IMG/VR virus record: IMGVR_UViG_3300025137_000235
Location: 1-26,896 of that record
Strand: one strand, 5' to 3'
Source of the DNA: a virus
DNA: 26,896 bases
The notes beneath the pieces are model-generated. The model ran no database searches. It was given only the letters and a program-made list of their open reading frames with translations, and was not told where the DNA came from. How positions within the stretch are numbered: position 1 is the stretch's first letter; each line of letters begins with the position of its first letter. Below are positions 407 through 18,000 of this stretch, piece after piece. The translations under genes and the position numbers were made by a program.

Positions 407-2536
407 ATGCCGTTGAAAAAAGTATTGTTTAAACCCGGAGTTAACAGGGAAAATACACGCTATACTTCAGAAGGTGGTTGGTACGAGTGCAATAACATTA
501 GGTTTAGACAAGGCACTCCTGAAAAAATTGGCGGTTGGCAACGTCTAAACACCATAACTTTTTTAGGGGTTGCACGTTCTCTTTGGAATTGGATCACCTT
601 GGGTGGTCAAAATTTGATTGGTGTTGGTACAAATGTAAAATTTTACATAGAAAACGGTGGTGCATTTAACGATATAACTCCTCTACGTAGCACCACTTCG
701 GCAGGAGAAGTTACCTTTAGAGCATCTAATACTACGTTGAGTGCTGCTATAACTTCCACGTCTGCTACTACAATAGCCCTAACAGATGCAACGGGTTTTC
801 CCCGTGCGGGTCTAGTGCTTATAGATAGTGAGGCTGTTTCCTATACCGGTATAACTGACAATACGCTTACAGGATGCACTCGTGGAGCTTCCTATTTAAT
901 ATCTGACGTACCTACTAGCACCACAGCTGCCACACATAGTAATGGAGCCGCCGTAACTTGTTTTACTATCGTGGTGCTTGATTCTAGTCACGGCGCTGTT
1001 GTTGGTGACTTTGTAACTTTTTCGGGAGCCGCTGCCCTAGGGGGCAATTTTACTGCTAAAGTGTTAAATCTTGAATACGAAGTCTTGTCCGTAGAAGATG
1101 AAAACACGTATACTATACTGGCAAAGAGTTTTAGTAACGCGACGCTTAAATTTACCAATGTTGCCTCTACCTCTTCTGATTCGGGTAGTGGTGGTACTTC
1201 CACGGTCGGAGCGTATCAAATTAACGTGGGGGTTACTACGGCATCTGATCTTGCAGGTTGGGGCGCAGGTAGCTACGGCGCGGGTTTATTTGGAGTTGGT
1301 GAAACAAGTCAAGAGGAACTACGCATATGGTCACAACAAAACTTTGGGGAAGATTTAATTTTTGGGTTGCGTGGTGGGCGTATATATTATTGGGATGCTT
1401 CAACTAGCCTTACAACACGCGCTGTTGACCTGACCACGCGGTCGGGAGCCTCTAATGTACCAACTGTTCAAAATTCTATTCTTGTGTCTGATATTAACAG
1501 ATTTGTGTTTTGTTTTGGAGCTAATATCTTAGGAAGTGCCACCCAAGACCCCATGTTAATTAGGTGGTCTGACCAAGAAGATGCTACTAATTGGACACCT
1601 TCAGCTACAACACAAGCAGGAAGTCTTAGGTTATCTAGAGGCACTAATATCGTAGCCGCATCTCAAGCCCGACAGGAAGTCTTGGTTTGGACTGACTCTT
1701 CTTTGTATTCGTTGCAATATGTAGGCGCGGGGTCTGGTGTTTGGGGCGCTACATTAGTTGGCGAACAGACGTCAATAGCCTCACAAAACGCTGTGGCATA
1801 TGCCAATGGGGTTGCCTATTGGATGGGTAAAGATAAATTCTACAAATACGACGGACGTACTCAACCACTACCGTCTGACTTACGTAAACACGTATTTACA
1901 AACTTTAACGAAGAACAGTTTGAACAGGTGTTTAGTGGTACAAATGAAGCGTTTAACGAAGTGTGGTGGTTTTATTGTTCTACAAACGCAATAAACATAG
2001 ACAGCTATGTAATATATAACTACGTAGAAAATATATGGTACTACGGTTCTATGGCACGGTCTGCTTGGCTAGACTCAGGGTTGAGATCATTTCCGTTAGC
2101 TGCGACTTACAATAACAGGATTGTCGAACATGAACGTGGGGTTGATGATAACGAGACAGGTACAGCCGCTGCCATATCTTCTTTTATCACCTCCGCTGAG
2201 TTTGATCTTGATGACGGACACAACTTTACCCTTGTGTCTAAAATGATACCAGATGTATCTTTTGAAGGTTCTACGGGTGGAACACCTACCATAGTGATGA
2301 CTTTACAGCCGTTAAGTTCTTCGGGGTCTGGTTTTAACAACCCTGCGTCCGAGAGCGGTTCTGCTTCAGGGTCGGTTGTGCGTAGTGCTAGCTCTCCTGT
2401 AGACGTGTACACAAGCCAAATTCACACACGCGTTCGGGGCAGGCAGATGTCTTTAAAAGTTGAGTCCACAACAACGGGAGTGCAGTGGCAACTAGGTTCT
2501 CCTAGACTTGACATGCGCCCTGATGGGAGACGGTAA
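407..2536 (+). CDS. Tail structural protein, nozzle / beta-propeller-like (709 aa)
   Basis: This is a beta-rich 709-residue protein starting 14 bases after the preceding gene, with GGTG upstream of the ATG as a plausible ribosome binding site. The N-terminus (FKPGVNRENTRYTSEGGWYE) is a recurrent opening in marine podovirus tail proteins. Residues ~112-185 form a small inserted module of the type DATGFP...IDSEAVSYTGI...LTGCTRG...THSNGAAV, seen in many phage tail proteins. It is followed by a second module beginning SSHGAVVGDFVTFSG. The C-terminal half has repeated blades with aromatic signatures (IRWSDQEDATNWTP, VLVWTDSSLYSLQYVG, VAYWMGKDKFYKYDG, EVWWFY, NYVENIWYYG), consistent with a beta-propeller hub such as that of T7 gp12-type nozzles. 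I infer a tail nozzle or tail hub role. A P22-like stabilisation protein is the main alternative. Confidence 0.6.
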   Translation: MPLKKVLFKPGVNRENTRYTSEGGWYECNNIRFRQGTPEKIGGWQRLNTITFLGVARSLWNWITLGGQNLIGVGTNVKFYIENGGAFNDITPLRSTTSAGEVTFRASNTTLSAAITSTSATTIALTDATGFPRAGLVLIDSEAVSYTGITDNTLTGCTRGASYLISDVPTSTTAATHSNGAAVTCFTIVVLDSSHGAVVGDFVTFSGAAALGGNFTAKVLNLEYEVLSVEDENTYTILAKSFSNATLKFTNVASTSSDSGSGGTSTVGAYQINVGVTTASDLAGWGAGSYGAGLFGVGETSQEELRIWSQQNFGEDLIFGLRGGRIYYWDASTSLTTRAVDLTTRSGASNVPTVQNSILVSDINRFVFCFGANILGSATQDPMLIRWSDQEDATNWTPSATTQAGSLRLSRGTNIVAASQARQEVLVWTDSSLYSLQYVGAGSGVWGATLVGEQTSIASQNAVAYANGVAYWMGKDKFYKYDGRTQPLPSDLRKHVFTNFNEEQFEQVFSGTNEAFNEVWWFYCSTNAINIDSYVIYNYVENIWYYGSMARSAWLDSGLRSFPLAATYNNRIVEHERGVDDNETGTAAAISSFITSAEFDLDDGHNFTLVSKMIPDVSFEGSTGGTPTIVMTLQPLSSSGSGFNNPASESGSASGSVVRSASSPVDVYTSQIHTRVRGRQMSLKVESTTTGVQWQLGSPRLDMRPDGRR

Positions 2537-3044: not shown

Positions 3045-3511
3045 TGGCTACAGTTATTGATAGTACCGAGACGCCCCTACCGGCTCCTACTATTGTGTTA
3101 ACATATGCGTCTGAGGCTAAATTACCTCCAGATATGGATTTGCAAACTGCGTTGACGCGGTGGGTACAAGAAATGTCTTCACCAAATATTGAGATGATTC
3201 AGGTAGGCAATACCGTCTTTGTTGGACATCCTAGCAAAGACAAACGTAAACTTATGGGTCGTGTATTTAACGTAGATACTGCACGTAATTTTGTGTCTAA
3301 TACTGTAAAGTATTTTAAGTTGCTGCAAAAAAAGGGGATAACACACTATTCTGTATCGTTCGATACAGGCACTTTGGAACAAATTGCAAAAGCAGTTGGA
3401 AAGGCACTTGTAGGAAGTGGAATACAAGCAGGTTTAGCACCAACTGAGTCTGGCAAAGAGACCGTGTTATTTGTGCAGTTTCCTACCAACATAAAGAAAG
3501 CTAAGTCATGA
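3044..3511 (+). CDS. Hypothetical phage protein in the tail gene cluster (155 aa)
   Basis: This is an alpha/beta protein of 155 residues in the coupled run of small tail-cluster genes. It starts in a TAATG overlap at 3042-3046 and ends in an ATGA overlap with the 1570-aa gene. Residues ~30-70 (LQTALTRWVQEMSS...EMIQVGNTVFVGHP) look like a helix followed by beta strands; residues ~80-120 hold a helix (NFVSNTVKYFKLLQKKG) followed by a strand. This resembles small proteins found upstream of large tail-tip or ejection genes in marine phages. There is no catalytic signature that I recognise; function is unknown. Confidence 0.6.
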   Translation: MATVIDSTETPLPAPTIVLTYASEAKLPPDMDLQTALTRWVQEMSSPNIEMIQVGNTVFVGHPSKDKRKLMGRVFNVDTARNFVSNTVKYFKLLQKKGITHYSVSFDTGTLEQIAKAVGKALVGSGIQAGLAPTESGKETVLFVQFPTNIKKAKS

Positions 3512-6500
3512 GTTTTGTTTTTGAAGTGGTAGACACAGTGGCTTCTCCGGTCCTTGATGTTGTGTCAGACATTGGTGACGTTGTTATGGACAGCCCTGTA
3601 TTCGACGTTATGGATTTTGTGCGTGACGAAATAGCTGCTCCTGTTTTTGATGTGGCTATAGATAATATAGATATATACGACGCTATTCAAATAGGGTTGG
3701 TTTTAAGTGGAGTTCCTCCGTGGGTTATTGGTGTATCATCAGGAGCTTCTACAATAGCCCGAGGCGGTGATTTAAGCGATGCTATTAAAGCAGGAGCTAT
3801 ATCTTATGCAGGGTCTACCATAGGTAAAACTTTTGACGCTAAGATTGCCCCTAGAATTACAGACACTCTTACAGCCGAAGGTTTTAACCAGACTGTTAGT
3901 AATTTAATTAACGAAGGCGTTAAATCCTCGGCAAAAGCATTGGTTTACGGTCAGGACCCTTTAAAGGCGTTTGCTACAGGTGGATTAACAGCAGGTGTGA
4001 ATGCTGCATTAGGGCAGATTGACGAGGCATTTACCAATCTTACAGGCGAATTTGAACTTGATGAAGTAGGAGAGTTTAAGCTTGATGATTTAGGCCAACG
4101 TATACCTATGGTTGCTGGATGGGAAAACTTACAGGATGGTGTCAAGGACGCTATAGCGGCGGGTGTAACTGCAGAATTAAATGGTGGCAGCGTAGACAAT
4201 GCGGTTCTTGCAAACATTGTGAGCAAATACTCTGGCCTTGCTAGGAACATGAACAACTTCTTACAAAGTGAAGAAGGTTTAGGTTTAGATGAAGACCGCG
4301 CAAGGCTCTTAACAACTGCTTTGGGTAATGCTGCAGGCGCTGCAGTTAGTGGTAATTCAGAACTCACATTTGACGCATTTTTCAAAACTATCGAAGATTA
4401 TGGGTACAAAGGATTAAAAGAAGCAATAGACAAACCCGTGTATGAAGGTTTGGACAAACTTACAGGCGACTACGGAAAGACTGCAACAGCAGCTAATGCG
4501 TTAAATACGGCTATTATAACGGCTCAAGACACGACAGACGAGTACAATAGTTTACGCACTGCCTTGCAAAACGAAGTTGACAATGCTGAAGCTCTTTATG
4601 GTACAGCAGAATACGATGCAGCATACGCAAGATTACAGGAACGGTATGATACATATTATACTCCTACGTTTGACGCATTACAGAGTGAGTATGACACTGC
4701 AGTAGTGGCAGTGCGTGATGCCCAGATTGAGTATGATGACCAAAGCCGGTTTCTTATGTCTGACTTAAACGATTTAGATTCAACATTGTCCCCCTTATTT
4801 GATGACGTACAACTTCAAACAGTGCTCGCTCTAAAACCAGATGCAAACTTAAAAGTTATTGCTAACTACCTTGGTGTGGATGAGGTAGATGCTGCAAATG
4901 CGATGTTAAGCACTAGCGGCGGGATTACAAATGTACCGAACACGCAGTCTCAAGCTGACGCTGCACTAAATCAAGCGCGACTTCAATATGTTACAGCGGC
5001 GTTAAATGCACGGGGCATACCCATTGAATCACTAAGCCCAAACCAACTAGGTAAATACCTTAATTACGCTAAAGAATTTTTAGGGAATACAAATGATATT
5101 TTAAGTTTAGATATGAACGAGTTTGCGGACAGCATGATTTACTCCGCTGAGTTATCTCCTGAAATAATAAAGGCAGCTAAAGACGCAGGTTTTGTACCCC
5201 AAACTGTAGACGACTATGGTATGTTTCTTACTGGCGAATACATACGGGTTAGCGAAGCAGGAAATACGGGAGACGCTCCTGAATTTTTAGATACTAGAGG
5301 ACTAACAGACGAAAATGTTGACCAATGGCTATTTACTAACGGGTACACACAAGACGACGTAACCCATGTTGGTGATGGGTATTATAACAGAGATACTACA
5401 GATTCAACTACTTATGGCTTTGAAAAACCCCCGCTTGAAGAACTAGACAATGCGGTAGGTAGTTTTCTCTACCTTGAAGACCCCATGCAAACAACGGGCA
5501 CCCGTGTTCTTGACGAAGTAGTTTTGGGCGACGGCGTAGGCGCACAACAGTTATTAGACGGGAGTGCCATCCTAACCAACAATGACGGAGTTCCTACGTG
5601 GGAACTACGTACAACGCAAGACACAGCTGCAGGCGGTGTTGATACGACTGCTGTATTAGAACAGGCGTTCACAGGCACTAACAAAGAGGACATGGTAAAT
5701 TTTGAAGGGTATGTAGAAACTTCGGGAGGTGCTTTATTTAATCCCGAAGACGAAGCCTATGCCCGTAGCAAATTACAGATTGCTACGCTTGCAACTATGA
5801 ACCCTAATGAAGGGCAAACATACGACGAGTTTACAAATTCATCTTTGTATAAAACAACTTCTACGTTGTATAACGCCTTTCGTGATACTTTTAGTGAAGA
5901 AGAAAACAAAGACATCCTTGACAATACTGTTAGTGTTGTTGTCGGCGCTAGTGGAGAAATGCTTCAAGCCATTGCCGGTTTAGCTACTCTTGTAGACAAC
6001 AATCCTAACAACGCATTAGGGCAAACTGCTAAAAATATGTTGCGGTTAAGTGGTGATATGCGGTCTGATGAATGGACTGCTGCTGCACAAGAAATGGCTA
6101 CTAATTCTGCTAACTACGATGCACAATGGCGTAAAGATAATCCGGGCAGAGAGCCAACAACTATAGAGAAAATATCTTTAAAAACACAAGCAATATACGG
6201 AAATTTTAAAAACCATCCTGCACAATTTTTAGCTGAAAACGTAGCTAGTGAGGTGTTACAGGAACTACCTATACTCCTAACATCTTTTGGTGTGGGCAAC
6301 GTGGCAAAAGCTGCATTGGTCAAAGCGGGTAAAGAAAATGCAAAGAGGTTGTCTACTAAGGCGGCGTTAAGCACCGCACTTACTTTAGATACTGCTGAAG
6401 CTTTTGGCGGCACTGCAGCGTCTACATTTGATGAAGTTTACGCTACCGCGTTGCGGACAGGTAAAAGCGAACAAGAAGCCACTGATCTTGCTCTAGATAC

Positions 6501-8220
6501 CGCACAAAAGGCAGGCACAATAGCTTCGTTAGCCACTATCTTTACAGCAACTACGATGGGCGGTCAGGCGCTTGCAAAGAGCGTTTTAGGCGATAATGCT
6601 GGTTCTATTGGTAAAAACGCTTTTGAGGCTTTGTATGATGTTGTTTTAGAAGGCACACGCGTAACTATAAAAGAAGGTATTACAGAGTCCATAGAAGAAG
6701 GGTTGCCGCAACTATACAGCGCAACTGTACAGAAACAACTAGACCCTAATTTTGATGTTGCAGGGTCTGTTTCTGAAGCCTCTATTATGGGCACAATCGC
6801 AGGTACAGGCACGGCAAGCACAATATATACAGGAAATGTTGTTGCTGATGTCTTGTCTATGGTTAATTCAGATGTAGAAAACGTGTTTGCCAATACTTCT
6901 ACTGCAGAAGAGGCTACCACAGCGTTACAAGAGCTTGGTCTCAACGACAATGTGGTCTTAAACAACATACTAAACACAACGTATGACACCATGTACGTTA
7001 GCACTAATGAAGCAGAGACTGCTTTTGCTACTGCCAATCCTGATTACATACCGACCCAAGATGAAATAAATTCTTTTGTAACTACTCCGCGTTCTGATGC
7101 AGATTTAGCCACCGAAATAAGTTCATACATTAACGAAAGATATACGAGTGTAGATGACGTAGTAGCGGCAGCAGAAGACGAAGGTATTACCTTAACAGAA
7201 GACCAAATTGATGACTATGTTGGTGAGGCTGACCCTGACACACTAGCTCCTACTACAGAAGAGTTACGAGAACGTATAAGGACCGACGAAGAACAGCGTC
7301 CTATTACCGAATTAAAAGAAGACGTTACGCAACTTGGCACAGATATAGTAGATACCGAAACTAGGCTAACCGATCTTATAACTACAAACGAAGAAGCAGG
7401 ATTAGCAAGAGACCAAGCCACGCAAACGGCGTTAGACACTCTAGCAGATCAATTAGGTATAACTGAAGCCGAACTTCTTGCTGAGATTGGCACTACTAAA
7501 AGTGAGTTACAAGCAGACGTTACGCAACTTAGTACCGACGTTACAGGGTTAACCAGTACGATAGGTGATGTAGGTACAGATGTACAAGCTATTGCAGAGT
7601 TAATTGGCAAACCTGCTCGTGACGTGACAGAAACAGACGTTGACTTTGTAATTGATTTGTTAGCGCAGGAAGATGTTCTAACTGAACAACAGACACAACA
7701 GTACGATGTTACCGGTGATAGTCTTGTAAATCAGTTAGATGTGGATTTGCTACAACAAGTCTTAAGTGGGGATACAGATGTTCAACTAGCCGACACGTCT
7801 ATGTTTACTCCTGCTACGGGACTTTTTGCAGACGTTGCCGCGCAACGTGACGTATTAACGCAAATTCAAGAAGATGCTGTTGTACAGAACCAAGCTGAAT
7901 TAGATGCAGTTACTGACTTAAACACCAATATAAACACGCAAATAAACGCGCAAAGAGAACAACAAGCCATGAGAGATTTTTTGCAAATGCAGCAATTAGG
8001 TTTGTTTCAAGGAGCAAGAACCGAAACTACTTCTCCCGACCCGCTTCAACTCTCTTACGCGTATGACATTGGTGGCGAAAGCGTGTTTGCTACTCCACAA
8101 CAAGAGGCACTATTTACCACTCCATATGGTGATCCTAGAGGCAGTACACGGTTTTTTACACAGGGTGGACAAATAAACACTAGCAATGATATGCTATTAA
8201 AACTACTTGGAGAGGCATAA
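3508..8220 (+). CDS. Large virion protein with coiled coil and dockerin-like Ca2+ loop (1570 aa)
   Basis: This is a giant acidic protein starting in an ATGA overlap. Residues 14-49 hold three PVxDV repeats (positions 14-18, 30-34, 45-49). Residues ~925-1116 are Ala/Gly-rich and hydrophobic, with an EGITESIEEG helix at 1056-1065, resembling a segment of the 2552-aa protein downstream. Residues ~1257-1385 form a long heptad-like coiled coil with repeated DVTQLxTD. Residues 1400-1411 match a dockerin/EF-hand calcium loop (D1400, T1402, D1404, N1408, D1411). The C-terminus ends in TQGGQI followed by LLKLLGEA, a tail seen in related marine phage proteins. I infer a structural tail or internal virion protein. 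Whether it is a central fibre, a tape-measure analogue or an ejected protein cannot be decided from sequence alone. Confidence 0.7.
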   Translation: MSFVFEVVDTVASPVLDVVSDIGDVVMDSPVFDVMDFVRDEIAAPVFDVAIDNIDIYDAIQIGLVLSGVPPWVIGVSSGASTIARGGDLSDAIKAGAISYAGSTIGKTFDAKIAPRITDTLTAEGFNQTVSNLINEGVKSSAKALVYGQDPLKAFATGGLTAGVNAALGQIDEAFTNLTGEFELDEVGEFKLDDLGQRIPMVAGWENLQDGVKDAIAAGVTAELNGGSVDNAVLANIVSKYSGLARNMNNFLQSEEGLGLDEDRARLLTTALGNAAGAAVSGNSELTFDAFFKTIEDYGYKGLKEAIDKPVYEGLDKLTGDYGKTATAANALNTAIITAQDTTDEYNSLRTALQNEVDNAEALYGTAEYDAAYARLQERYDTYYTPTFDALQSEYDTAVVAVRDAQIEYDDQSRFLMSDLNDLDSTLSPLFDDVQLQTVLALKPDANLKVIANYLGVDEVDAANAMLSTSGGITNVPNTQSQADAALNQARLQYVTAALNARGIPIESLSPNQLGKYLNYAKEFLGNTNDILSLDMNEFADSMIYSAELSPEIIKAAKDAGFVPQTVDDYGMFLTGEYIRVSEAGNTGDAPEFLDTRGLTDENVDQWLFTNGYTQDDVTHVGDGYYNRDTTDSTTYGFEKPPLEELDNAVGSFLYLEDPMQTTGTRVLDEVVLGDGVGAQQLLDGSAILTNNDGVPTWELRTTQDTAAGGVDTTAVLEQAFTGTNKEDMVNFEGYVETSGGALFNPEDEAYARSKLQIATLATMNPNEGQTYDEFTNSSLYKTTSTLYNAFRDTFSEEENKDILDNTVSVVVGASGEMLQAIAGLATLVDNNPNNALGQTAKNMLRLSGDMRSDEWTAAAQEMATNSANYDAQWRKDNPGREPTTIEKISLKTQAIYGNFKNHPAQFLAENVASEVLQELPILLTSFGVGNVAKAALVKAGKENAKRLSTKAALSTALTLDTAEAFGGTAASTFDEVYATALRTGKSEQEATDLALDTAQKAGTIASLATIFTATTMGGQALAKSVLGDNAGSIGKNAFEALYDVVLEGTRVTIKEGITESIEEGLPQLYSATVQKQLDPNFDVAGSVSEASIMGTIAGTGTASTIYTGNVVADVLSMVNSDVENVFANTSTAEEATTALQELGLNDNVVLNNILNTTYDTMYVSTNEAETAFATANPDYIPTQDEINSFVTTPRSDADLATEISSYINERYTSVDDVVAAAEDEGITLTEDQIDDYVGEADPDTLAPTTEELRERIRTDEEQRPITELKEDVTQLGTDIVDTETRLTDLITTNEEAGLARDQATQTALDTLADQLGITEAELLAEIGTTKSELQADVTQLSTDVTGLTSTIGDVGTDVQAIAELIGKPARDVTETDVDFVIDLLAQEDVLTEQQTQQYDVTGDSLVNQLDVDLLQQVLSGDTDVQLADTSMFTPATGLFADVAAQRDVLTQIQEDAVVQNQAELDAVTDLNTNINTQINAQREQQAMRDFLQMQQLGLFQGARTETTSPDPLQLSYAYDIGGESVFATPQQEALFTTPYGDPRGSTRFFTQGGQINTSNDMLLKLLGEA

Positions 8221-8924
8221 TGTCTGAATTTCTAAACAGTCTTAGAGGTCTTACCGGTAGCGCCGTTACCGAAGTCCAAAATATGTTTACAAAAGATAGT
8301 GGTGAATATGATTGGCAAAACATTGGTATTTTAGCAGGTATGGGTGCTAGCGCGTTAGGATTAATACCTGATGCGGGTTCTGCAGCTTCAGGATACCAAG
8401 GATCAATTCCTGACCTGACTGCAACTCGCGAACGTGTTCCCAACACGTATGATCCTAACAGAAGGGCGGGAAGTGGGGGACAACGATACTTCACTGACAC
8501 GCAATTTGTTCCGAAAACTGGGGCACCTGCAGCCCCTGTGTCTGCAGCAGGATTGGCCGCTATAAATATGTCTAACCCTGCACAAGAACAACGAAAACCT
8601 AGCCCAATTCCCCCTCCTATAGGTCGCGTTGCCCAGCCTATGGCAGCAGGCGGTATCGCAAAATTAAAAAAAGGGCAGTATCTTAATGGTAAAACAGATG
8701 GTATGGCTGATGTAATACCAGCACGTATAGATGGAGTGCAAGAAGCCAGACTTAGTGATGGTGAGTTTGTTATTCCTGCAGATGTTGTAAGCCATCTTGG
8801 CAACGGCAACTCTGATGCGGGTGCAAAAGTTCTTGAAGGTATGATGTCACGTGTTCGTAAAGCACGGACAGGTAACACTAAACAGGGGAAAGAAATTAAC
8901 CCTAAAAAATTCTTACCAGCGTGA
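8220..8924 (+). CDS. Virion protein with conserved phage C-terminal DGEFVIPADVV module (234 aa)
   Basis: The gene begins in a TAATG overlap with the 1570-aa gene. The N-terminal 140 residues are variable and proline/glycine-rich, with one hydrophobic stretch near residues 33-50 (NIGILAGMGASALGLI). From M141 the sequence enters MAAGGIAKLKKGQYLNG and then a strongly conserved module (DGMADVIPARIDG, LSDGEFVIPADVVSHLGNG, ending PKKFLPA). I recognise this module from many uncultured marine phage and tail-assembly-associated proteins. It is not an enzyme motif that I know. Position between the 1570-aa protein and the probable ejection-protein genes suggests an internal virion or tail assembly role. 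Function remains inferred. Confidence 0.65.
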   Translation: MSEFLNSLRGLTGSAVTEVQNMFTKDSGEYDWQNIGILAGMGASALGLIPDAGSAASGYQGSIPDLTATRERVPNTYDPNRRAGSGGQRYFTDTQFVPKTGAPAAPVSAAGLAAINMSNPAQEQRKPSPIPPPIGRVAQPMAAGGIAKLKKGQYLNGKTDGMADVIPARIDGVQEARLSDGEFVIPADVVSHLGNGNSDAGAKVLEGMMSRVRKARTGNTKQGKEINPKKFLPA

Positions 8925-8932
8925 GGTAGATT

Positions 8933-9844
8933 ATGGCTAACATTCTTACAACAAACGAAGACCCGATTGCCACAGGTAAAGAATCTGCACTATCTAATTA
9001 CGCAGGTCCGTATGTTACTAACATGTTGGGCAGAGGCCGAGCGTTAGGTGAAGAACCTTATAGTGCTTATATGGGGCCACTGACGGCAGGGTCTTCAGAC
9101 TTACAAGATGCAGCGTTTCAAGGTGTAGGTTCTCTTGCGTTGCCTACAGAAGAAATGGGTGTAGGCGGTTTCACTCCTGATACTTTTACCTCTGAAAACG
9201 TGCAGCAATACATGAATCCCTACCTTATGAACGCATTGCAGCCACAGATTGATGAAGCTCGTAGGCAGTCCGAAATAAATAGAGTAGCAAATGCCTCGCG
9301 TTTAACACGTGCAGGGTCATTTGGAGGGTCACGCCAAGCTGTTATGGACGCAGAAAATCAAGCATCACTTAACAGAAATTTAGCAAATATTACAGGGCAA
9401 GGATACCGAGACGCGTTTGACAAAGCTACGGCCCAATTTAATACTCAACAAAATAGAGATATGGACGCACAACGAGCTATAAATGAGTACGGTATGACCG
9501 GACTTGGCGCGTTAGCTGATTTAGGGACCGTTCAACGTAATATAGAAGCAGAAGGTATTGCTGCAGATAGGGCACAGTTTGAAGAAGAACGAGATTTCCC
9601 GTACAAACAAGTGCAATACATGCAATCTTTGCTACAAGGCTTACCTATTGCTGCACAAAATGTAACTTACCAAGAGCCTAGTTACTTACAACAGTTGCAG
9701 ACAGATAGTGGTGACTTTCTTTCGTTCTTTAAAACTTTGTTTGGTGACCAAGATAAACAAGTACCTGCTGGAAACATTACTAAAGGAAGTCTTTCCGCTC
9801 CAGTAACTTCTCCCATGGCACCACTAATGGACTTAATAGGGTAA
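8933..9844 (+). CDS. Probable internal virion / ejection protein, small member (303 aa)
   Basis: The ATG follows GAGGTAG by a few bases, a good ribosome binding site. Residues ~90-180 are the most characteristic: YMNPYLMNALQPQIDEARRQ, then SRLTRAGSFGGSRQAVMDAE and ITGQGYRDAF...QFNTQQNRD, a long helical region with a Gly-rich turn that recurs in marine podovirus genomes. The C-terminus contains a short hydrophobic stretch (LSFFKTLFG). It is followed after 5 bases by a 740-aa helical gene and then the 2552-aa gene. By size and order the set resembles T7 gp14-gp15-gp16, the ejected core proteins. That analogy is an inference from synteny; I see no sequence identity to T7 gp14. Confidence 0.55.
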   Translation: MANILTTNEDPIATGKESALSNYAGPYVTNMLGRGRALGEEPYSAYMGPLTAGSSDLQDAAFQGVGSLALPTEEMGVGGFTPDTFTSENVQQYMNPYLMNALQPQIDEARRQSEINRVANASRLTRAGSFGGSRQAVMDAENQASLNRNLANITGQGYRDAFDKATAQFNTQQNRDMDAQRAINEYGMTGLGALADLGTVQRNIEAEGIAADRAQFEEERDFPYKQVQYMQSLLQGLPIAAQNVTYQEPSYLQQLQTDSGDFLSFFKTLFGDQDKQVPAGNITKGSLSAPVTSPMAPLMDLIG

Positions 9845-9849
9845 CAAAA

Positions 9850-12072
9850 ATGGCTTTAGGTATAGATCAAGAAATTGAAAGTCGCAAAGATGCGTACCGT
9901 GGAAACCCTCAACAGTTGCAAAAACGGTATTCGCAAAACAAACAACTTGTGGACTTGCTAGCTTTACAACAAATGAAGTCTGACCAAGAAGCCGTTAAAC
10001 GCAATCAAGCACTAAAAGCAAACCAAAATGCAGGAACAGTAGCAGAAAGATTAGAAGCAGAAGTACTTGATGGGTACAAACAAAAACAAGCTGCAAAAAT
10101 TGCAGACACTCGCGGTGTATTGCAAAACAAACAAAACACGCAAAACAAAAACATGCAGCGTATGGCTGCAGCGGCAGGTAAAACCAGACCTACAGGGCTT
10201 GCAGCGTTAACTGGAGCACAAGGACAGGCGGGGATAGGTGGTATGCGTAAACCCCCTGTACGGTCCGCTCAGGGCATACCGGCACAGGTTCCTAGCACTG
10301 CACGTATGGCTCAGGGTGGTATTATTGGGTTTGCAGGGGGTAGAGGTGTAGAGGGAACAGGAGATTATCCAGAATTAGGGGGTACGGAACTTACTACTGA
10401 AAGGCTTATGGCCCTAAAAGAGGCATATCCAAGAGACTATTTACGTTACGCTGAAATTATTAAAGACAATCCTGATGGCATTCCGTTTTATACATTACCC
10501 CCATTATTACAAAACAAAATAAGTGAATTATTTAACATAAGAAGAGAATTTTCACGCGCAGACTTGCGAAGGTTAGAATCGGGAGCCGATCCAAGCGGTA
10601 TGGATACAGAAGAAGGGTCTGGTTTTGAGTTAGACCCTATAGAAGCAACAGAACGTGCCACTGACCCTGAACCTGAAACTGCAGAACAGCCTGAATCTGA
10701 AACTGCAGAATCGTCTACGGGTGATGTTACATTTGAACCTGTAGAAAGAAAACCTAGTGCCTTAGAAGGCATAGATACAGAGGTTGAGGCAGTGGTGCCT
10801 CAACAAGTTGATACTTCACAACAAGACGAGGCAAGAGAGGCTGTGGTAGACCAAGCAGCCAAAACAGTCGGAAAATTAGACCCAATATTATTAGACGACC
10901 CTGACGCAACACAAGTTGCAAGTTTAGAACCTGTTAGTCCTAATGAGTATTTAGACGAAACAAACCAAAAATTATTTGAAGGATTAACTACACAACAAGT
11001 TAAAATGATTAACAAACACCAAGACCCGTTAGCTATGGGACTTGATGCTCGTGATGAGTCAGATGATTATTTACTACGTGAACTTAAAAGAGACACACGT
11101 AAACGCCAAATTGATCGTTCGTCTGCTTTAGAAGATGAAGCACGAGGTGAGGACAGGATAAATAACGCAATTCGTACTTTAGGTGGCGCGCGTAGGGGTG
11201 CTGGTGGCTTAGGAGATGCTTATTTAGAAGGACAAAAACTTACACGTGACCGGCGGTCTGCATCAGAAAAAATTCGTAGGGGCATTGAAGACGCGGCAAT
11301 CTTAACTGATACTAATATTGGTTTGGACGGCCAACGTATGCAAACAGAAATTGGTCAGCAAGCTTCAGATTTGTTGGGTCAAGGTATTGCAGGAATACAA
11401 GCAAGACTAGACACAGCTGCTGCAATGTCTAGAGATAAACGTGAAGGCAAGCAATCTGCATTTAATATAGATTCACGCAATCAAACACTAATTGATATTA
11501 GAAACAGCGAGTCGGAAGACAATACGCAACAACAAAATGCGGCTATTGAACAAGCAGGCTTAGACAGAGAAGCAGCAGCAAGAAGATCAGTTTTAGAGGC
11601 ATTAAATAGAAGAGATGTGCAAGAACAAGCCAGACTCATACAACAAAGTGCAAATGCCCAACAAACATTGTTAGAAAATGTCAAAAGAAAAATAGAAGTT
11701 GCAAAAAGCACTGATGAACATGACCGATTTGTAATGGAGCTTGACTCAAGAAATATGCTAGAAATGGAAGCCCTTGTTTCGGGAGCAACCGAACGACTAA
11801 CAACAGATCGTAACGCGCTCATACAAGGTAATGCAATATACCAAGCATTGGTACAGGAAGCAGGACTAGCAGAGGGAGATGACATTGATGGTGCAAAAGC
11901 TAAATTGGAACAATACGAATCTATTATGGATGCAATACTTGCAGATCAATTTGCAGACCAGTACGCAAGATTAGGCGCTATGCAAAACCGATTAGATCAA
12001 TTACGCGCACAAGCAGGAATGCCTACTATATTAGACCCTGCTGATCCTTCCATAGAAGTAACTCCACAATAG
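9850..12072 (+). CDS. Probable internal virion / ejection protein, middle member (740 aa)
   Basis: This protein is mostly helical, rich in Gln, Ala, Arg and Glu. Residues 1-120 are basic coiled-coil-like (KQLVDLLALQQMKSDQEA and following). Residues 153-164 carry MAQGGIIGFAGG, close to a motif in the 234-aa protein. Residues ~225-345 are acidic and Pro/Glu/Thr-rich with a duplicated PExETAE unit. Residues ~360-740 are again long helices with heptad character. No catalytic motif is seen. The start is 5 bases after the previous stop with only a weak AGGG, so translation may depend on coupling. Its length and place in the 303/740/2552 series suggest a T7 gp15-like tube protein of the DNA ejection apparatus, by analogy only. 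Confidence 0.55.
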   Translation: MALGIDQEIESRKDAYRGNPQQLQKRYSQNKQLVDLLALQQMKSDQEAVKRNQALKANQNAGTVAERLEAEVLDGYKQKQAAKIADTRGVLQNKQNTQNKNMQRMAAAAGKTRPTGLAALTGAQGQAGIGGMRKPPVRSAQGIPAQVPSTARMAQGGIIGFAGGRGVEGTGDYPELGGTELTTERLMALKEAYPRDYLRYAEIIKDNPDGIPFYTLPPLLQNKISELFNIRREFSRADLRRLESGADPSGMDTEEGSGFELDPIEATERATDPEPETAEQPESETAESSTGDVTFEPVERKPSALEGIDTEVEAVVPQQVDTSQQDEAREAVVDQAAKTVGKLDPILLDDPDATQVASLEPVSPNEYLDETNQKLFEGLTTQQVKMINKHQDPLAMGLDARDESDDYLLRELKRDTRKRQIDRSSALEDEARGEDRINNAIRTLGGARRGAGGLGDAYLEGQKLTRDRRSASEKIRRGIEDAAILTDTNIGLDGQRMQTEIGQQASDLLGQGIAGIQARLDTAAAMSRDKREGKQSAFNIDSRNQTLIDIRNSESEDNTQQQNAAIEQAGLDREAAARRSVLEALNRRDVQEQARLIQQSANAQQTLLENVKRKIEVAKSTDEHDRFVMELDSRNMLEMEALVSGATERLTTDRNALIQGNAIYQALVQEAGLAEGDDIDGAKAKLEQYESIMDAILADQFADQYARLGAMQNRLDQLRAQAGMPTILDPADPSIEVTPQ
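10666..10710 (+). repeat. Two 21-bp direct repeat copies, 24-bp period, inside the 740-aa gene
   Basis: The unit at 10666-10686 recurs at 10690-10710 with one mismatch (C at 10672 versus T at 10696), separated by CAG. In frame it encodes PEPETAE, then Q, then PESETAE (residues 273-287). This lies in the acidic, probably disordered linker and looks like a recent slippage or duplication event. Confidence 0.8.
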
Positions 12073-12085
12073 TAAGGTAGACTTT

Positions 12086-15000
12086 ATGGTTGCGTACAAT
12101 TTAAAAACTAAGTCTGGAATAAATGCGGTAGTAGATGCTCCTGTAGGAGCTACTAAAAAAGAAGTTATAGATATCTATAACAAGACGTTACAAAGAAAAT
12201 TAGACGCGCCTCGTTTACAACAAGAAGCTACAACGCAACGTGCGCGTGATGCTAGAAGTCGTATGTTAATGGAACGAAAACGTGCGTACGACCCTACTAT
12301 CACTGATTACCTAGCTGAAATACCTAAAGGCGTTGTAGGTGGTGCTGCAAATTTAATAGAGTCTGGTGCGTTAGGCATCGCCGCGCTGCTACCCGAAGAG
12401 GCAGAGAATGTTGTACGCGACGGCATAAAATCTGTAGGTGGAGCTGTACAAGATTATGTAAAACCTACAGTAAACACTGAGGACAGTGTACCGCGTAAAT
12501 TTAGCGAGGCTGTAGGCTCGTTTGCGGGACTTGCAGGCGTCTTTGCTGCTAATCCCATTGCAGGCATTACGACTGCTGTTGGCGCAGGCGTTGGTGAGGC
12601 TAGTGAACGTGCAAGAGCCGCAGATGCCACACAAGAAGAACGTAACCTTGCAGCAACACTTGGTATACTTCCGGGCGCACTTGAGTTAATCCCTATAAGT
12701 CGTTTTGTTAAAGGTGTTAAATTACTAAGAAAAGGGGAAGCTGCTACAGATGTAGATTCTGTTACAGCCGTAGGGCCAAACACTGTTGTAACACAAAACC
12801 GACTTATCGCTAACCGTGTTGCACGTGCAGCCCGTGAAGGCGGTATTGAAGGAGCGCAAGAAACAGCATCTAGTATAGCTCAAAACATGATTGAGCAGGG
12901 GTATAACCCCGATAAAGGTACGTTTGAAGGTAGCGGTGAAGCTGCTGGCTATGGTTTTGGTGTAGGTGCGTTTGCACAAACCTTGCTCGATCTTGCCGCA
13001 CCCAAAATACGCGGTAGTGCAGACGTAGATGGCGAAGAAGGACAGGCTGCAGCAAGAGCCGCAATCGGTAAATCATTAGATGAAACAGGAGCAGTTGACT
13101 TCAACATATTACGCACGTTGGACGCACCTGCTCTTACTATTGAAAAAATAATAAACGAAGAAAAAACTAAACGTAATATTGTCGATCAAGACCCCGACGT
13201 GTTACAAGAATTACTTACAAAGCCACGTGTTGTACAAGACAAGACACGTTTTGATCAAGCTGTGGCTAAAGGAAAATACCAAGGTAATTTACGCGATAAC
13301 TACGAACGCTATAGAGCAACAAATCCCTTAACCGCTATGTCTTTTAAAGAATACGTAGAAAGTGGTATGGGTACATCTTCATTAGAAGATATGGAATTAG
13401 CAGATAGAACTTCTGCAGATATAAAATCAAAACTTGATCGCGTTGCTACTGATCGTGCTACTGAGTTGTTAAGTGATCTAGGTATGCAACAACAAACAAG
13501 TGCTCGTATAGATCGTCAGCTTAAAGCCATTGATCCCGAACGTGACGGCAGATTTGACCGTGCTGTTGCAACAGCAGGTAGTGATGTAGCCCGAGGATTG
13601 GCAAGCCTTCGTCCTGAAGCACAAATGGATTTAGCTACCGATCCTAAACGTACAGCCGAAGAACGCGCACAATCAGAGTTATTCCCTGAACAGGTACGTG
13701 AAGGCGCGTTAGGACAGGCGCAGTTAGAAAATCTTGAACGTCGTAAAGAAGGTCCAATTAGCGAACAGCCAAAGGCTACAGATGAGTTAGACCCGTACCG
13801 TAGTGACCTGCTATCGTTCTTGCCTGATGGATTAGAAGGCGCTCGCAGACGCAAGGCTGATCAACAAGAAACTGATTTGGCTGAACGGTCAGATGCACAA
13901 ACGGCTCTAAAACAAATCTCTGCACAGGAAACAGCTGACGCCAAACAAGTTACAGATAGGCTTGCAGAGACAGATGCTACACGCACTAAAATATTGCAGG
14001 ACACAATAGCTAATGCAGGAGAGCTTCGTAGGCCCGAAGCTTTGCGAAAAGCGTATGAAGACGCGCTAACAGCGGCAGGTATAACTAACGCCAAGGCCAC
14101 ACCACAGGAGGTGACTAGCCTAAAACGTGCGTCTGATGCAATACGGGCTAAGTCCCCTGTTCCTAATGTAGATAATATCATTGTACCTCCTGCGTTGGAG
14201 CCAGTAACAGACCCTAGACAAGCAGACATGGAAGCACAAGTTGCTCCTAAACCTGTAACGCCAACGCAAGCCTCGTTTGCTGGCATGGGGCGTAGTGCTA
14301 AACTTGGCACCCCTCCCATGCGTCCGGGCCAAGACACGTTTGCTACTGCAGAACCTACTGTAGAACCCCGCATTATAAATGAAAAATTTTTAGACAATTT
14401 AAAAATAAGACCGCAAGCTGCAGTACGTAAACGCACTATGGGCAAAGACTTTAATGATCCTGTGGTACGGGCAGATATTGCTAGTTATGCGGGTTTAAAA
14501 AGCACATCGTTAGAGGCTAAAAACCAAATAAATCGGTTACTTGATGACACCGATATTAAACAAACTAGTATATTTGACAAAGAAGAACCTACAAAAAAGG
14601 GAGCAAAACCCGATGCAGACCCAGATAAATCTAAATCACCTGACGCGGAAGGAAGTGGAGATGGCGATGCAGGTGCTGATGGAAAGCGTAGAAGTGAAGG
14701 GCAAGCCAAAGCCGATAGAGGTCCCGAAAGAACTGAAACATCTGACGGGGAGGGAGTGGGACCTGCTGGCAAAGGGGCTAGCGAGCCTCGTGACGGAGAT
14801 GCAGACAGCGACTCTGCACTAGCTAAAGCAAACGCAAAGTTAAAAAAAGCGCAACAAGCTAAAGCCAAACGTGAGGCTGCTGCTCGCGCAGCCGAAATTG
14901 CTAGGAAACGTCAAAAAGAACAAGATGAAAAACTTGAAAACCTACGTAGAGAAGCTTCCAAACAAAGAAAAAAAGATAGGGATGCCGAAAAGCAAGCCGC

Positions 15001-18000
15001 TGCCCAAGCTAAATTCAAAGCAGATATAGCTAATGCAAAGAAAAAATTTGATAAAGAACAAGCCGATGCTAAAGCTGCTATGGAAGCAAAAAGTGTATCC
15101 ACGCTTGCTGATAAACCAAAACCTGCAGGAGAAACAGGAGCCAGAACTACAGGATTCGGTGGTGGTGCAACTGACCCTGAGCGTAGAATAAGTCGGCGTA
15201 ATCTTAAAGAATTTACACCAAACTCACGCCCTGCCCCAACCGAACCTTCTGCTAAAAAAATAACTACGTTATGGAACGAAAGTGCTTCCGACGCAAAGCA
15301 AGAGGACTATAAAAACGATGATGCTGTTCGCAACAGCACAAACCCGTTTAACGACGAAGATAACAACACAATATATGAATTACTCACTAAAAAATTAACC
15401 GGAAATGAGACAAACAGGGGTGGTAATGATTCACTTGTAAACGTAGTTGCATACCTGAGCCGTTATCCTAACCCTATGGACGGTATAAAACTAGCCGCGT
15501 ACGACCTTGTTAACAACACAGAAGCTATGAACGTAAATGTGCAGAACGCATCTGTTGCCTACATACGAACTGCCGAAATGTACAAAGACATGGGCGGTGT
15601 ACCTAGTAAGAAAGGTAAAGATTCTAAAGGAAGAGAAATTACATCTCCTGCAGAACGTCTTCAAATATGGGTTAATACAAACCTTAGTAGGGACGGACGA
15701 GAGCGATTTAATAAAGAGGTAACAAGAGCCACAACTGCTAAACTTAGTCAACGAGATTCGTACGTAGGCATTAGCAATATCCGTGAACATATAGATGAAA
15801 ATGTAAGACAAGCTAAAGTGTTACAGGTACTACAGGCGGTATCACAACGAGATAAATTTAAACCTGCAGATTTAGTAGCTGAAAACATTGTAACTAAAAA
15901 AGAATTAAACGCGTTACTTAAAAACAAATCTCTTGAACAAATAGCTGGTGGTAGTTGGGTCTACAATCCTCCTAGTCTGGCGTTTAAAGGCCAAGAGTTT
16001 GGAAAAAATGAAGCCGAGATTAATGAAGACCGGCGAACTACAGAGGAATATCTAAAAGATTTAGGTGTAACGCTTAGTAGTCCGTTAAACCTTTCGCTAG
16101 AAGCCGCGTATGTTGTAAGCACAGCGTCTGTACATCCATCTGTTACTAACGCGCTTAAAAATAATAATCTTCAGGACGCACTGCTATTCGTAAGCCAGAC
16201 ATCTTCAAACAAACAAGTACGTCAACTTGCTGAAAAATTTGCAAAGGTCACTGGCACTACAAAAGTTGTTATTAAAAAGAATCTCAAACTAAACGGCAGA
16301 CCCGTAGCTGGCCTGTTTGAACCACGCACTAATACTATCACGCTAGACGCAGACGCTGGTATCAACTTACATACGCTGATGCACGAGATGTCTCACGCAG
16401 CGGGTAGCGCAGCAATAGCCGACAAAAGCTCACAACTAGCAATCAAATTAAACGAGTTGTTTAAACGTGTTAGAGGGTCGTTGAGCCGAGAATCAGGCAC
16501 AGCAAACTTACAAGAGTTTTTCGCTGAAGCTATGGCAAACTCAGAGTTTCGCAGTGAATTGTCAGCAATTAACATGAAGGGCGAACCTGTTACTGCGTTA
16601 CAGCGGTTCTTCAACATAATGCAAAACTTTTTACGTAAGTTTACGGGCGCACCATCGGTAAACTTAACGGCCTTACAACAAGTAGACAGTCTTACTGACG
16701 CGTTGTTAGCCCCTGCCCCAGATAGCCGTAATTCTGCAGCCTACCCAATGGCTATGATGGATACTACGCGTAAGGGCGTACAGAATTTCATGTCAGGATT
16801 TATTGATGGTACGCAAAAAGTCGTTAGTAAGACTAGCCAAGAAACAATAAAAAACAATACTAAGGATTTCTTCACACAGACCATAGATAAGAAGGGTAAA
16901 GATTTATTAATGATGCTTTCTGGCTCACAAGCTATGGGCGACATAGCTAGTGCAGTGGGTTTAGGTAACTTAGGATACGACTTAGATAGGATTATGGCGC
17001 AACAACGCGGTTCTATCATGAATGCTGAAGCCAAAGTAAAAGATCAAATTGAAGATATTTTAACAGTCTTAAATAAAGGCAACAATGCAGAGGCAATAAG
17101 AAAACGTATCGAAGCATTAAACACGGTTATATACGATAACAACTTTGGTGCTACGATCTTCCAAGTAGACCCCAACGAAGCCCGTAGCGAGTATTTAACT
17201 AAAAAAGGTGAGTCAAAAATAGATAATGAAGGCAACAAGTTAGCAGATATTTGGGACGCCCAACGTAAACATTGGAATGATATGGGGCCAGAAGGGCAAA
17301 AAGCCTTTAACGATATGCGTAAAGTGTACGACGAACAATATGCGTCTATGAAAGAAGTTTTGTTTAAACAAGTAGACGATAGCTTGGGTGATGGGGAGAC
17401 AGCCAAAGCATTAAAAAATACTATTACTAAACAGTTGTTCGATAAATCAAAGTTAAAGGTGTACTTCCCGTTGTTACGCGAAGGCGACTTTGTGCTACGT
17501 TATGATGTTAAAAACATTGACCCCAAAAAACGTATAGCCAACGTACTGCAAACTTTTGAGACTGCATCCGAACGCGATGATGCCAAAGCAGTTATCGAAG
17601 CAAGTTCTGATTATGAAAACGTAACTACGTCTGACGGAGAATTAACACTGTCCCAGATGCAATCTGTGCCAGCCGTGTTTGTTCAAGATACGCTATCCGT
17701 ACTTAAAAAAGCTAAAGTAGACGCAAGTGTGCAAAAAGACATATTGCAGTTGTTTATAAAGACGTTGCCTGAGACATCTTTTGCGAAAGCATTACAGGGA
17801 CGTAAAGGTACTCCCGGATATATGCAAGATAGCGTCCTTGCTCTAAAGACAAAAGCATATAACATTGCTAGCCAAGCACAGAAAATTAAATACGGTGCAG
17901 AAATACGGGCATTAGAACTTAAAATAGAAAATGCCAAACCACCTACAGACCCGCCTGCGAAGGGTAAGACAATATCTGGTAAGGTGTTACGAGGGTTGGA

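Follow-up and report, generated by a model that had tools for sequence, protein, structure and literature searches.

A conserved A-x-G-G motif in neighbouring proteins of a podovirus-like tail and ejection module: a candidate processing-and-anchoring junction of the siphophage tape measure type

Cleavage of the tape measure protein in phages lambda and T5 has been known for decades. In T5, mass spectrometry maps the cut in the tape measure protein pb2 after R1127, and the C-terminal piece, a helical trimer, reportedly remains in the tail tip (Linares et al. 2023, PMC10038345). The context of this bond is FVPR↓AEGGMM, which places the cut directly ahead of an A-x-G-G tetrapeptide, and the R, A, GG and GE positions are invariant in six T5-like proteins with identities down to 34%. 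In the podophage P22, the ejection protein gp7 is described as being cut by the host protease OpdA, yielding a mature N-terminus of Lys-Gly-Gly-Lys-Gly, and loss of the 20-residue leader is said to cost little (PMC8402733); in the sequence record the context is SYPE↓KGGKGG. The literature searched, part of it available as partial text, yielded no mapped cut sites in ejected proteins besides those of T5 pb2 and P22 gp7, and neither a named protease nor a general recognition motif for tape measure cleavage. Since bonds with a GG in the P1'-P4' positions are rare (15 of 1218 in pb2 and 17 of 228 in gp7), a fortuitous coincidence of cut and GG in both proteins is unlikely, in a comparison that was made after the idea had formed and that rests on these two mapped sites.

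Lambda gpH has two A-x-GG copies, HFATGG and GYATGG, with sites at A734 and A779, and a cut before A734 would leave a sequence-based mass of 79.8 kDa out of 92.3 kDa, a value which we take to fit the sizes of gpH and gpH* and which does not amount to a test. The tape measure protein of JBD30 likewise has two copies, FASGG and HATGG; the cut that its authors predict, at R1066 (PMC11445458, partial text), falls at neither of them. The tape measure proteins of TP901-1, HK97 and 80alpha have no A-x-GG module. A separate head-protease system acts at AXE sites in the head proteins of SPN3US, according to the portion of the source available (PMC10052503).

The locus considered here, from a marine phage, is a window of 26,896 nt, constituting the analysed stretch of IMG/VR virus record IMGVR_UViG_3300025137_000235, on whose plus strand ORF calling yields the gene order p709, p111, p155, p1570, p234, p303, p740, p2552 (Table 1). 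Three products make it very probable that this block represents the module for tail and ejection in a podovirus-like phage: the nozzle-like p709, which matches PDB chains 9nwi_Y and 8zkk_O (the latter carrying the name nozzle); p303, with a weak match to the DNA ejection protein family PHROG 4287 (E 0.0015); and the PLxRFG-type giant protein p2552, which scores 288.5 bits against NF032893 (PLxRFG/tail-700; cut-off 100). Gene order, together with such weak matches, suggests that the individual proteins are virion components. Distant named relatives of parts of the block are found in Synechococcus phage MinM2, Caulobacter phage RW and Microcystis phage MJing1, and further ones in Erwinia phage PEp14 and Klebsiella phage LASTA. 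Neither p234, p740 nor p1570 has a match in PHROGs, and p234 and p740 retrieve no significant family in Pfam, PHROGs or NCBIfam; BLAST of p740 against the phage collection gave no match, PDB profile searches with two of the alignments described below (A1 and A3) returned insignificant matches or none, and a host or prophage search for p234 relatives in genome contigs found none. As a separate observation, residues 1373-1419 of p1570 match Dockerin_1 slightly under the Pfam cut-off (20.3 vs 22.9 bits), forming an odd calcium-binding-like repeat ahead of the C-terminal tail.

Table 1. Genes, motif copies and modules of the tail and ejection block, in window coordinates
Feature	Position	Strand	Description	Basis
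p709	407..2536	+	Tail nozzle / P22 gp10-like, first gene of module	PHROG 3287, E 5.7e-71
p1570	3508..8220	+	Large protein in hypervariable slot, C-terminal tail conserved	ORF
Motif copy 1	8158..8175	+	FF-TQGGQI, p1570 residues 1551-1556	String located; relatives FAQGGQ, RAKGGM, AKGGII
p1570 C-terminal tail	8158..8217	+	20 residues, GG then amphipathic helix-like end SNDMLLKLLGE	
p234	8220..8924	+	Candidate ejection protein; N-terminal part plus tape-measure-like C-terminal module	Comparison with relatives
Motif copy 2	8640..8660	+	MAAGGIA, p234 residues 141-147	GG invariant in alignments A3 and A1
p234 C-terminal module	8643..8921	+	A142-A234, 93 residues	BLAST of phage RW copy, alignment A4
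p303	8933..9844	+	Helical candidate ejection protein, without strict motif	Weak PHROG 4287 match
p740	9850..12072	+	Mostly helical; predicted disordered linker bears motif	AlphaFold2 model
Motif copy 3	10306..10341	+	MAQGGIIGFAGG, p740 residues 153-164	String located; GG invariant in A2
p2552	12086..19744	+	PLxRFG / polyvalent-type giant protein, candidate in-virion metallopeptidase	NF032893, E 1.1e-85
HEMSH signature	16382..16396	+	Zinc-metallopeptidase signature, p2552 residues 1433-1437	Sequence match

The first-pass annotation of this DNA had drawn attention to a recurring Gly-Gly-Ile motif in p1570, p234 and p740. A string check in the ORFs recovers all three strings where they had been placed, each once per protein. 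By itself GGI, which occurs once in each of the three proteins, has shuffle means of 0.40, 0.19 and 0.22, its count being reached by 33%, 18% and 20% of 2000 shuffles of p1570, p234 and p740, respectively; the DNA pattern GGNGGNATH has 10 matches in the window against 5.49 expected. The longer form MAxGGI is reached in 1 of 2000 shuffles for p234 and likewise in 1 of 2000 for p740. Bare GGI is unremarkable in the window, and MAxGGI is not a product of chance. The recurrence proposed earlier is thus upheld in the form of MAxGGI and in the relatives, while the Gly-Gly-Ile consensus gives way to A-x-GG-hydrophobic. Taken strictly, the three strings are not one motif, p1570 reading T-Q-G-G-Q with Q rather than I after the GG; they become one through the relatives, whose FAQGGQI, AKGGII and RAKGGMI identify TQGGQI as a variant of A-x-G-G. 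Across 80 related loci the motif is best written [M/F/Y/R]-A-x-G-G-hydrophobic.

These loci came from a search of viral contigs with p234 that retrieved 103 relatives, of which 80 loci were analysed; most of them keep the gene order. Counted over distinct proteins, excluding loci L081 to L083 and the window itself, the strict motif [MFY]A.GG[IVLYFMQ] is present in 22/28 p234 proteins, 33/40 fusions of p234 with p303, 45/62 p740-slot proteins and 12/73 p1570-slot proteins, with shuffle controls averaging at most 2 proteins per set, and in none of the 40 p709, 25 p303 and 58 p2552 proteins of the relatives. A looser form, frequent in shuffles too, is found in 28/28, 40/40, 62/62 and 55/73 of the four motif-bearing sets. 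Genes were called simply as longest ORFs; some slots may be misassigned in these counts, namely the p1570 slots of L042, L060 and L061 (121 aa), which were scored as misses. In L049 and L050 the caller prefers minus-strand ORFs (230, 150 and 647 aa) at the p234 position. Absence of the motif from homologues had been named as the outcome that would speak against it; the homologues conserve it.

Alignments sharpen this result. In A2, comprising 40 of the 50 distinct proteins hit by p740 (slot-740 proteins lacking a BLAST match being left out), mean column identity is 19% and only G142, G156 and G157 are invariant, the last two being the GG of the motif. In A1, with 37 of the 40 distinct p234-p303 fusions, both the p234 GG and a junction GG are invariant; A3, in which the p234 GG is invariant too, uses 23 of 30 sequences. 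The GG codons of the relatives use all four synonyms, which indicates that selection acts on the protein; in the survey of codons and flanks the site pattern itself demands GG, whence its 59/59 GG holds by construction and its evidence lies in the codon counts and the flanking residues. At all four places (the three copies and the fusion junction) the residue preceding A-x-GG is mostly M, F or Y, the p1570 tails having A plus some R or K, and Arg being a minority among the relatives. The motif is real and under protein-level selection.

A wider DNA scan of viral contigs for MAxGGIVG[FY], the fixed letters of which are likewise conserved by construction, gave at least 120 stretches against 3 for the reversed peptide. 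All 127 matches listed lie in frame within an ORF of at least 40 residues; among them, 77 fall in the p740 slot by BLAST and 42 have no BLAST assignment, most of the latter having a p740-like position and context. From its sequence context, the match in L132 resembles a chance hit in a membrane protein and that in L108 a tape measure protein. Two exact copies about 84-120 residues apart are seen in p740-type proteins of L112, L135, L192, L204, L212 and L217. Searches of the literature, mostly outside subscription papers, gave no paper on the motif, and the strings GGIVGF, GGIVGY, MAQGGI, MADGGI and AQGGIVG were absent from the literature so covered.

In p234 the motif is the opening of a C-terminal module with the layout A-x-GG ... 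G ... D-x-I ... LSxGE(F/Y)V. Synechococcus phage MinM2 and Caulobacter phage RW both have this module. The RW copy matches 66 phage records by BLAST, and most of the matches listed carry a tape measure annotation, in siphophages that include mycobacterial, rhodococcal and salmonella ones. An alignment of 12 podovirus-type and tape measure sequences (A4) has invariant A, GG, G, D and GE, the start of the module corresponding to A142, G144 and G145 of p234. Judged from these sequences, the p234 module is related to siphophage tape measure proteins: it shares with the C-termini of those of LeBron, Sergei, Faja, lambda (gpH) and JBD30 the sequence (F/Y/M)A-x-GG ... GPGTGxSDxI ... LSxGE(F/Y)V, whereas p234 falls far short of tail-ruler length and sits in a podovirus-type operon. 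The downstream G, D-x-I and LSxGE(F/Y)V elements are present in p234 only; p740 and p1570 have A-x-GG alone in common with the tape measure module. Indeed, a profile comparison of A2 with A4 aligns 7 columns at a probability of 1.4%, and the p1570 tail, with 20 residues only, has no SDxI or GE(F/Y)V. At L057:5597-6583 about 55 inserted residues, including a hydrophobic stretch, split the p234 motif from the rest of the module.

A further copy of the motif appears in relatives at the junction of a gene fusion. The p234 and p303 genes, separate in the window (8220-9844), are a single fused ORF in 40 distinct relatives. Where separate, p234 ends in KEINPKKFLPA or similar; where fused, the chain continues as KFMPxMAQGGIA.. 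or KFMPGGLAGY.., then enters a low-complexity stretch, which is Thr/Gly-rich and of variable length, and then p303. The junction GG is present in 40/40 fusions, just beyond the point at which the separate p234 ends. A cut at this junction would restore two proteins much like the separate p234 and p303; the junction could also be a linker or docking element.

The two remaining carriers place the motif in different surroundings. The AlphaFold2 model of p740 has helices at 5-109 and from 183, with residues 147-180 at pLDDT <50, such that the motif falls in a coil-predicted, low-confidence linker; the models are poor overall (mean pLDDT 56.8 and 61.6) and around the motif, on account of which structural evidence drawn from them is weak. 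Conservation in p740 extends beyond the GG as I-V-G-F/Y..GG. Relatives of p740 frequently have another GG/GIAxLP-like element 10-17 residues ahead of the motif. In the p1570 slot, whose members reach about 2,650 aa, 705 of 1378 protein pairs are without a BLAST match once the last 45 residues are set aside, and 254 of these 705 nonetheless have the tail in common. The combination of GG and helix pattern (xDxLLxIIGE) occurs within the last 32 residues of 43 of the 53 slot-1570 proteins of at least 600 aa and in 7 of 2751 internal 32-mers. By its sequence, p1570 is built like a cargo that carries a conserved tag at its end.

Candidates for a processing enzyme were sought in the relatives, the window being without capsid-region genes. 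The head protease domain PF04586 was detected in 0 of 15 relative records, many of these being fragments, and no protease was recognized among 10 proteins of L092 and 10 of L091/L094; matches to PHROGs 133 and 4523 span only the C-terminal, capsid-like part of the profiles. The capsid region of L092 encodes a portal, a GroES/Cpn10-like protein, a charged scaffold-like protein and a Mu gpT-like capsid protein; its GroES/Cpn10-like gene (L092:14609-15028) lies between those for the portal and the scaffold-like protein. In p2552 the HExxH signature is conserved in 45 of 46 slot-2552 proteins of at least 1000 aa. Metallopeptidases are reported in packaged polyvalent proteins (Iyer et al. 2017, PMC5512222), and p2552 resembles the polyvalent proteins with a zincin-like metallopeptidase both in its PLxRFG/tail-700 match and in this HExxH. 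A host protease or the p2552 peptidase could be the cutter, the action of the latter at A-x-GG sites being speculation.

Combining these strands, we tentatively lean, at somewhat below even confidence, towards reading the motif as a processing-and-anchoring junction of the siphophage tape measure type that serves several times in the ejection-protein operon of a podovirus-like phage. Each protein would be recruited to the assembling virion core through one side of the motif. This is clearest for p1570, whose helix-like C-terminal tail is conserved while the rest turns over; for p234 the recruiting part would be the C-terminal module, similar to the end of tape measure proteins located in the tail tip. 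Cleavage just before A-x-GG would follow, by a protease that is likelier to be a host enzyme or the p2552 peptidase than a head protease, and upon ejection the bulk would exit while the anchor piece remains. For this phage, we infer the occurrence of cleavage, the copies cut, the protease and the anchoring alike. The likeness to T5 pb2 lies in the prospective cut directly before A-x-GG, the GE-bearing module that follows and the ejected nature of the protein; further, the C-terminal fragment of T5 has 92 residues against 93 from the p234 motif to the end, and both end helical. Against this, the siphophage T5 has a single site mapped, in a single protein, whereas here 3-4 sites are predicted in neighbouring proteins, and the T5-like proteins have an Arg ahead of the site where the window has Met, Met and Phe. 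P22 gp7 is comparable as an ejected virion protein with N-terminal processing beside Gly-Gly (E↓KGGKGG); it differs in having no Ala before the GG and in lacking a demonstrated sequence relation to p234 or p740. Prohead-protease maturation, as by SPN3US gp245 or in T4, is similar in using a short repeated site in several internal virion proteins, but has another consensus, and no head protease was recognized in the relatives examined here.

Of the functions offered in the first-pass annotation, maturation cleavage gains partial support from the position of the T5 cut directly before A-x-GG and of the P22 gp7 cut before GG, and sorting or docking gains it at p1570, where the C-terminal tail is kept while the remainder turns over. 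We place cleavage ahead as no other reading would predict the T5 coincidence together with the fusion junction. Several facts count against it: the lack of an Arg ahead of the motif (Met, Met, Phe here, and Glu in P22), the failure to detect a head protease in the relatives examined, the mere 7 columns over which the p740 motif is alignable to the tape measure module, the absence of that module from TP901-1, HK97 and 80alpha, and the predicted JBD30 cut elsewhere. The conservation of I-V-G-F/Y..GG far beyond a normal protease footprint rather suits a structural or docking role. A serious alternative, which we regard as possible with somewhat less conviction, is accordingly that A-x-GG-hydrophobic is a short linear motif which folds onto a common partner (the portal, the tail hub or a protein of the core) and, without any cut, keeps the ejection proteins in place, either in the virion or in a channel across the envelope. 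Such docking explains the extended GG-I-V-G-F/Y..GG pattern of p740 better than cleavage, and it is consistent with an invariant motif in a low-confidence, coil-predicted linker, with several, variably spaced copies per protein (in the six loci with paired copies listed above) and with a conserved tail on a hypervariable p1570. It has precedents in the tape measure C-termini of T5, JBD30 and lambda, which are described as docking in the tail tip as short helical trimers (PMC10038345, PMC11445458, PMC10721106), and in the tape measure protein of TP901-1, whose final 30 residues are reported to be required for assembly (PMC5099701), all as far as the partial texts go; yet it leaves unexplained why the mapped T5 cut coincides with the motif and why an extra copy marks the precise point at which p234 and p303 are fused. 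The two readings would come together in an anchor-and-cut model, by analogy with the T5 tape measure end, which is both docked and cut.

Rather unlikely, in our estimate, is a purely structural boundary, in which the GG is a turn or hinge that opens a beta-rich module after a disordered linker, with neither partner nor cut. That the p234 motif opens a larger conserved module, and that tight turns suit glycine pairs, speak for this; yet p740 has no predicted fold after the motif (147-180 at pLDDT <50, in a poor model), just 20 residues follow it in p1570, and hinges seldom retain an Ala plus flanking residues. It is highly improbable that the motif is membrane-active, a counterpart of the glycine zipper in T6SS effectors that helps ejected proteins cross the envelope: the carriers are likely ejected proteins, and GxxxG zippers are reported in Tde1, with a membrane role, and in Burkholderia tape measure proteins (PMC10240207, partial text), but GG with a single hydrophobic stretch of 3-4 residues is not a helix-long series of GxxxG repeats, and the flanking residues, notably in the p1570 tail, are charged. 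Least of all do we credit coincidence or a DNA-level repeat spread among neighbouring genes. Bare GGI does stand at chance level in the window, and the junction and p740 copies are slightly more alike at the DNA level within a genome than between genomes (0.529 vs 0.500), in a four-site comparison usable for this pair alone, the p234 site (YYLGG) and some tails having been wrongly picked; this is outweighed by the varying synonymous codons, and coincidence is ruled out by conservation across relatives, the invariant GG in A2 and the excess over the reversed peptide in the DNA scan.

The processing-and-anchoring reading has a bolder extension, which we think unlikely to hold in full: that A-x-GG is a single conserved release site serving unrelated tail types, in the tape measure proteins of siphophages as in the ejection proteins of podophages, and that the enzyme cutting it is either a widespread oligopeptidase of the host or a metallopeptidase packaged in the virion. 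If this is true, a short C-terminal piece would anchor the proteins and the cut would free them for ejection, the whole cargo and ejection operon would be armed in this way, and the p1570 tail would be a portable cargo-loading tag on a hypervariable payload. Regardless of this, a motif common to the mapped T5 site and to adjacent podophage proteins makes the question of cleavage testable, and the conserved tail on the hypervariable, probably packaged p1570 could be a natural loading tag for phage-injected proteins.
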